From Bacillota bacterium (GTDB lineage: Bacteria > Bacillota > Sulfobacillia > Sulfobacillales > Sulfobacillaceae), in NCBI GenBank assembly GCA_021784595.1, contig JAJYHT010000017.1:1-64000 (forward strand): a stretch of DNA of 64,000 nucleotides. Direction: 5' to 3'. The notes beneath the pieces were generated by a model. It did no database searches. It saw nothing but the letters and a program-made list of their open reading frames with translations, and was not told the origin of the DNA. The position numbers and the translations under genes were made by a program. Positions 31,573 through 32,161 of this stretch are shown one piece after another. How positions within the stretch are numbered: the first letter of the stretch is position 1; each line of letters starts with the position of its first letter.

Positions 31573-31600
31573 ACGGCGGGGGAATCCCCGCCGTCTTATT
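31573..31600. terminator. Terminator of sqdB, shared with the convergent peroxiredoxin gene
   Basis: ACGGCGGGG-GAAT-CCCCGCCGT is a 9-bp G+C-rich stem with a 4-base loop followed by CTTATTT. It overlaps the stop codon of the minus-strand gene. Confidence 0.9.
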
Positions 31601-32075
31601 TCGCCCAGGGTTTGATGGCTTCGATAACGGGACCAGGCTCAGGCACTTCTGCAATGTTATGCACATCGATGTAGCGCACGATACCGGTCTTATCAATGCC
31701 AATCACGGCCCGTTCGGTGAATCCTTCGGCACGTAGCACGCCATACTGGTCGGCAACTTTGCCGTGGGGCCAAAAGTCGGAAAGCAGGGGATAGTTTAAG
31801 TTGCCTAAAGATTGTTCCCACGCAGTATTACAGGGAACTGAATCTACACTAATACCCAGGACCTGGGTATTAAGCCGGTCAAACTCGGGCAGGGCCCGGT
31901 TGAACGCCGGCATTTCATTAGTTCAGACGGGTGTCCAGGCCAACGGATAGAACAGAAGTAGGACATTTTTCTGCCCTAAATAGTCGGATAGTTGAATGGC
32001 GCGTTGGTTTTTTGTAGCCAATTCAAAATCCGGCGCTTTGTCGCCTACGTTGAGAGTTTTTGTTGTGTTTGCCAA
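31596..32075 (-). CDS. Peroxiredoxin with in-frame UGA at the catalytic cysteine (probable selenoprotein)
   Basis: Read through, this is a complete 159-residue AhpC/BCP-like peroxiredoxin that reduces peroxides. The TTG start lies seven bases after AAGGAGGA and gives A-N-T-T-K-T-L-N-V-G-D-K-A-P-D-F. The active-site motif P-x-x-x-T-x-x-C reads P-L-A-W-T-P-V followed by TGA (complement of 31923-31925, codon 51) and then T-N-E-M-P-A-F. So the codon of the peroxidatic cysteine is UGA while the frame is open on both sides, which fits selenocysteine insertion. C82 could be the resolving thiol. Downstream motifs L-L-S-D-F-W-P-H-G and V-I-G-I-D are normal. A nonsense mutation is the alternative. Confidence 0.85.
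31896..31910 (-). promoter_or_regulatory. Candidate bacterial SECIS hairpin
   Basis: Twelve bases after the UGA the mRNA has CCGG-CGUUCAA-CCGG, a 4-bp stem with a 7-base loop whose second base is G about 18 bases from the UGA. Bacterial SECIS elements place the loop at this distance with an early unpaired G. The stem is short, and an overlapping CGGGC-CCU-GCCCG hairpin competes, so this is only a candidate. Confidence 0.35.
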
Positions 32076-32161
32076 GGATGGCTCCTCCTTATGGTCATTG
32101 ACGACCAGTCTTACTATAGCCTAATTAACCCAAAATTATCTAGTGAATGGAGGCAGATCTC

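Follow-up and report, generated by a model that had tools for sequence, protein, structure and literature searches.

A probable selenocysteine-containing peroxiredoxin of the AhpE type in Sulfobacillia

Results

How is a peroxiredoxin gene to be read when a single stop codon interrupts its frame exactly at the catalytic residue? We addressed this question for a locus in a 64,000-nucleotide stretch of DNA (hereafter, the window; contig JAJYHT010000017.1 of assembly GCA_021784595.1) from a member of the Sulfobacillaceae. The gene occupies positions 31596..32075 of the minus strand. As read directly from the sequence, it starts with TTG (32075-32073), a position at which several relatives have ATG, is preceded at a spacing of 8 nt by the Shine-Dalgarno sequence AGGAGG (32084..32089, minus strand), and ends in TAA (31598-31596). 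The single in-frame stop between 32075 and 31596 is a UGA (31923..31925, minus strand) at codon 51, which is the peroxidatic cysteine position of the PxxxTxxC motif and aligns with the peroxidatic cysteine of Mycobacterium tuberculosis AhpE. With UGA read as selenocysteine (Sec), the product has 159 amino acids and matches the AhpC/TSA family (PF00578, 1.3e-37) over the full domain, unbroken on either side of the UGA. A gene caller that treats UGA as a stop returns only a 105-aa open reading frame, starting from an internal ATG at 31913. A sequence-only reading of this stretch had described a peroxiredoxin frame with a TTG start and a well-placed ribosome binding site, interrupted solely by one UGA at the catalytic cysteine codon; the ribosome binding site, the frame, and the AhpE alignment all bear this description out.

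A strong, GC-rich hairpin (31573..31594; nine pairs, eight of them GC, scored on the plus strand only) lies between the gene and its convergent neighbor and is probably a terminator shared by both; on the minus strand, the stem is followed by GTTTCTTT. A promoter scan gave no more hits than expected by chance (two found vs. 1.2 expected), and a plasmid search returned distant matches only, all below 60% identity.

What type of peroxiredoxin does the gene encode? The nearest solved fold is that of M. tuberculosis AhpE (E 4e-19, TM 0.90-0.94, for a model with pLDDT 95.1), which was also matched by sequence (1e-32). The two proteins (Rv2238c; PDB 1XVW and 4X0X for AhpE) are alike in fold, in length, in the PxxxTxx(C/U) motif, in a conserved Arg, in an LLSDFWPHG stretch, and in having no conserved resolving cysteine; they are about 38% identical and differ in that AhpE has a peroxidatic Cys at the position encoded here by UGA. 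Pro44, Thr48, Sec51, and Arg122 are invariant in all 27 aligned rows that carry the UGA. A conserved resolving cysteine was not found among these rows: Cys82 is present in 17 of them, and any other recurrent Cys is common to at most three. The Eubacterium acidaminophilum type of Sec peroxiredoxin, PrxU, shares membership of the AhpC/TSA family and Sec at the peroxidatic position (TxxU), but its model (NF040737) is 233 positions long, and the protein encoded here scores 67.7 bits against it, far below the cut-off of 270. We regard the product as almost certainly a Sec-containing peroxiredoxin of the AhpE (one-cysteine) type. The earlier identification as a Sec peroxiredoxin is supported and narrowed to AhpE rather than PrxU.

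How widespread is the UGA among homologues? We searched 154 genomes of the class Sulfobacillia and separately scanned a set of named genomes. The best matches in the class came from the genome itself and 21 others, at 50-85% identity, and all contained one internal TGA; one of them (G096) had an additional TAG in the matched range. The scan of named genomes, in which three loci were contigs already found in the class search, added Sulfobacillus harzensis, Bacillus suaedaesalsae, Acidobacteria, Eremiobacterota, Thermoanaerobaculia, and unclassified metagenome-assembled genomes (MAGs). In total, 28 distinct sequences, including that of the window, have TGA at codon 51 (27 other genomes, 21 from the class and six from elsewhere). 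UGA occupies this codon in all homologues found that are at least 50% identical. Two MAG sequences with 48-49% identity (L071 and L073) and the more distant AhpE of Streptomyces and others have TGC or TGT. Thus, UGA is found in close relatives and Cys in distant ones, a comparison that the sequence-only reading had proposed.

In a maximum-likelihood tree, the window's peroxiredoxin falls in a 20-row clade composed entirely of UGA genes (support 96/94), and the UGA/Cys label requires four changes vs. 15.9 when labels are shuffled. Downstream of the UGA, pN is 0.07 against a pS of 0.67 (compared with L035), values that indicate strong purifying selection on this part of the frame. Because the same codon is conserved as UGA in every homologue found at 50% identity or above, a chance UGA is excluded, as the sequence-only reading had anticipated in judging a random nonsense mutation unlikely, and the comparison identifies the UGA at the catalytic codon as a conserved sense codon of the family.

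Is the UGA accompanied by a signal for Sec insertion? A SECIS-type hairpin lies directly downstream (31874..31911, minus strand), with a lower stem GCCGG/CCGGC, an internal loop, an upper stem CGGGC/GCCCG, and an apical loop about 30 nt after the UGA. The 60 nt beginning at the UGA have a folding energy of -20.2 kcal/mol (z -2.90), and one of 200 shuffled sequences folds equally well. Among 16 close orthologues, the two-stem structure is paired in 87.5% of cells and four pairs have changed on both sides; the covariation score was reached by none of 500 shuffles, and all measures drop when the pairing partners are slid. Covariation also exceeded all shuffles for the 28 sequences across phyla, with the named structure counted. 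The mean folding z after codon 51 is -2.29 in 27 UGA genes vs. +0.52 in 16 Cys homologues (P = 8e-8), and other positions within the UGA genes, used as a control, gave mean values near -0.5, ranging from -0.80 to +0.22. Among identical residues, the fraction encoded by identical codons reaches its maximum around codons 63-71.

Consensus folding returned a structure for the 16 closest rows and none for the wide 28-sequence alignment, as the details of the hairpin vary from phylum to phylum. The Rfam model SECIS_1 had no match in the genome and none in the control genomes either; its null result is therefore uninformative. On structure and covariation, the hairpin is conserved and of the bacterial SECIS kind. 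The SECIS-like hairpin noticed in the sequence-only reading is therefore present, but "weak," as it was called there, does not fit its folding z, its covariation, or the contrast between UGA and Cys genes.

Does the genome have the machinery to insert Sec? The assembly (3.79 Mb in 101 contigs, 97.5% complete) encodes selC, a tRNA-Sec(UCA) called as tRNA-SeC (72.9 bits), selA (541 bits), selB (347 bits), and selD (352 bits, with an in-frame TGA of its own), which is the gene set that the sequence-only reading had proposed searching for; the selA carries an in-frame TAA. Of the 20 genomes of the order that have the AhpE-type gene, 19 also carry selA, the exception being G093. A tRNA-Sec above 60 bits is found in 16 of the 20, and the four without a match (G121, G122, G119, and G113) are draft assemblies searched under stricter filters. 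A published comparison of Sulfobacillus genomes had already described formate dehydrogenases of this genus that putatively contain Sec (PMC4378227).

The TAA lies in the middle of selA (G000:C33:64640-65902) at residue 230 (L014:2074-2076), where the nearest relatives have Gln and others have Thr or Ala; no interruption is seen in the remaining selA genes listed from this order. It opens the alternative that the peroxiredoxin is a selenoprotein gene by ancestry in a strain that has just lost Sec synthesis, so that its UGA now acts as a stop and yields a truncated product. We consider this unlikely, albeit a possibility to be taken seriously: the portion of selA 3' of the TAA is no more diverged than in relatives, and four genes with in-frame TGA are otherwise intact. 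Because Gln is found in the nearest relatives and there is no decay downstream, the TAA is either a very recent change or an assembly error. If real, it makes Sec synthesis by the sampled strain impossible at present. Recent loss is compatible with the Sec-containing AhpE reading for the family as a whole, and the TAA leaves the identity of the peroxiredoxin gene untouched.

The genome contains other genes with in-frame TGA. A second peroxiredoxin (G000:C45:94548-95000; L012/L217) has one at its peroxidatic position, in the motif PLAFTPG-U; it is 29% identical to the AhpE-type protein and occurs in 22 genomes of the order, with one TGA in all, and no NCBIfam model matched it above cut-off. The formate dehydrogenase alpha gene, fdhA (G000:C54:14681-16543), also has one in-frame TGA. 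Downstream of fdhA, a separate segment (G000:C54:18974-19129) matches the first 52 positions of the formate dehydrogenase model.

Could an unusual tRNA decode the UGA as Cys or some other residue instead of Sec? The genome encodes a tRNA-Cys(GCA) (G000:C1:18026-18117; L002) whose D and variable arms resemble those of tRNA-Sec and whose discriminator base is T. It is conserved in the order (L202-L207, L209-L212, and L215) and resembles the published selC* class of tRNA-Cys, and an opal-reading tRNA-Cys with tRNA-Sec-like arms has been described in other organisms (PMC7609411). However, all copies read in the order have the anticodon GCA and therefore should not read UGA, so that this candidate was rejected; moreover, a true tRNA-Sec(UCA), SelB, and a SECIS hairpin are all in place. 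Decoding as anything other than Sec is very improbable.

We give equally little credence to the idea that UGA is a stop and the 105-aa frame a separate gene. A gene caller would report that frame, but the encoded protein would have neither the catalytic residue nor the N-terminal portion of the peroxiredoxin domain, purifying selection acts on the frame on both sides of the UGA, and the conserved hairpin begins shortly after the ATG at 31913; we rejected this option on these grounds. Finally, the gene could be an ordinary Cys peroxiredoxin altered by a nonsense mutation or by an error in sequencing. In favor of this are the one stop within an otherwise intact frame and the extra TAG in G096, a sign that assembly errors may occur. 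This explanation, or that of a pseudogene, is refuted by the recurrence of UGA at the same codon in 27 other genomes, by the purifying selection that acts on either side of it, and by the conservation of the hairpin, and its probability is vanishingly small.

Discussion

How would a Sec-containing AhpE work? Drawing on established knowledge of Sec insertion, SelB bound to the hairpin would deliver Sec-tRNA to the UGA at codon 51. By analogy with AhpE, the Sec51 selenolate, positioned by Pro44, Thr48, and Arg122, would attack a peroxide (ROOH) and be oxidized to a selenenic acid, which an outside thiol system would then reduce. Because a conserved resolving cysteine is missing, an outside thiol probably regenerates the enzyme. 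AhpE itself is reduced via mycothiol and mycoredoxin-1.

The gene neighborhood is conserved in several genera, although not in all: an epimerase, the Sec peroxiredoxin, then a methyltransferase and/or cupin, and then an FeS-assembly ATPase. In B. suaedaesalsae, a fusion of glutaredoxin and pyridine-nucleotide-disulphide reductase lies directly upstream of the peroxiredoxin (L067:2583-3920), which hints that the fusion is a candidate electron source. Because this glutaredoxin-flavoprotein reductase fusion adjoins the Bacillus orthologue, our guess is that the reductant could be a glutaredoxin- or thioredoxin-like protein. In an unclassified MAG, a gene upstream of the peroxiredoxin (L068:3146-3670) matches glycine reductase selenoprotein B (PF07355) over the C-terminal portion of that protein.

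Sec peroxiredoxins with a T/SxxU motif are an established selenoprotein family, according to two surveys (PMC1794560 and PMC13188914). The survey family "Prx" resembles the gene described here in its PxxxTxxU motif and in having UGA with Cys homologues; the survey portions available set no AhpE-type subgroup apart and make no mention of Sulfobacillia. The sequence-only reading named a few anaerobic Firmicutes as known carriers of such proteins, but they extend beyond these: published lists include several Deltaproteobacteria and Symbiobacterium (PMC1794560). A "PrxU" has been described as upregulated in Sulfobacillus thermotolerans, with a 178-aa peroxiredoxin given in a table (PMC7409299, in the portion available). 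By its description, it belongs to the same bacterial group and enzyme superfamily; its name seems to have been taken from annotation, and that portion shows no Sec. A search for literature on AhpE and selenocysteine, covering titles in an incomplete library, returned no title about a Sec-containing AhpE from bacteria.

The gene may represent an AhpE-type subgroup that is so far without a name. Whether it does so in the broadest sense we regard as an even bet: an unnamed AhpE-type Sec subfamily, with UGA conserved across Sulfobacillia and with members in genomes of Acidobacteria, Eremiobacterota, Thermoanaerobaculia, and Bacillus, that in many of these genomes is accompanied by another family of UGA peroxiredoxins and would give presumably aerobic acidophiles two Sec peroxidases.

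Sec peroxiredoxins themselves were already known, and they have mostly been discussed from anaerobes; what is added here is a well-supported AhpE-type Sec subgroup conserved across Sulfobacillia. Its gene is easily misannotated, as pipelines would give a 105-aa fragment without the active site. The Sulfobacillus group, which faces high peroxide and metal stress, provides cultivable hosts in which to ask why Sec has been kept for peroxide removal.
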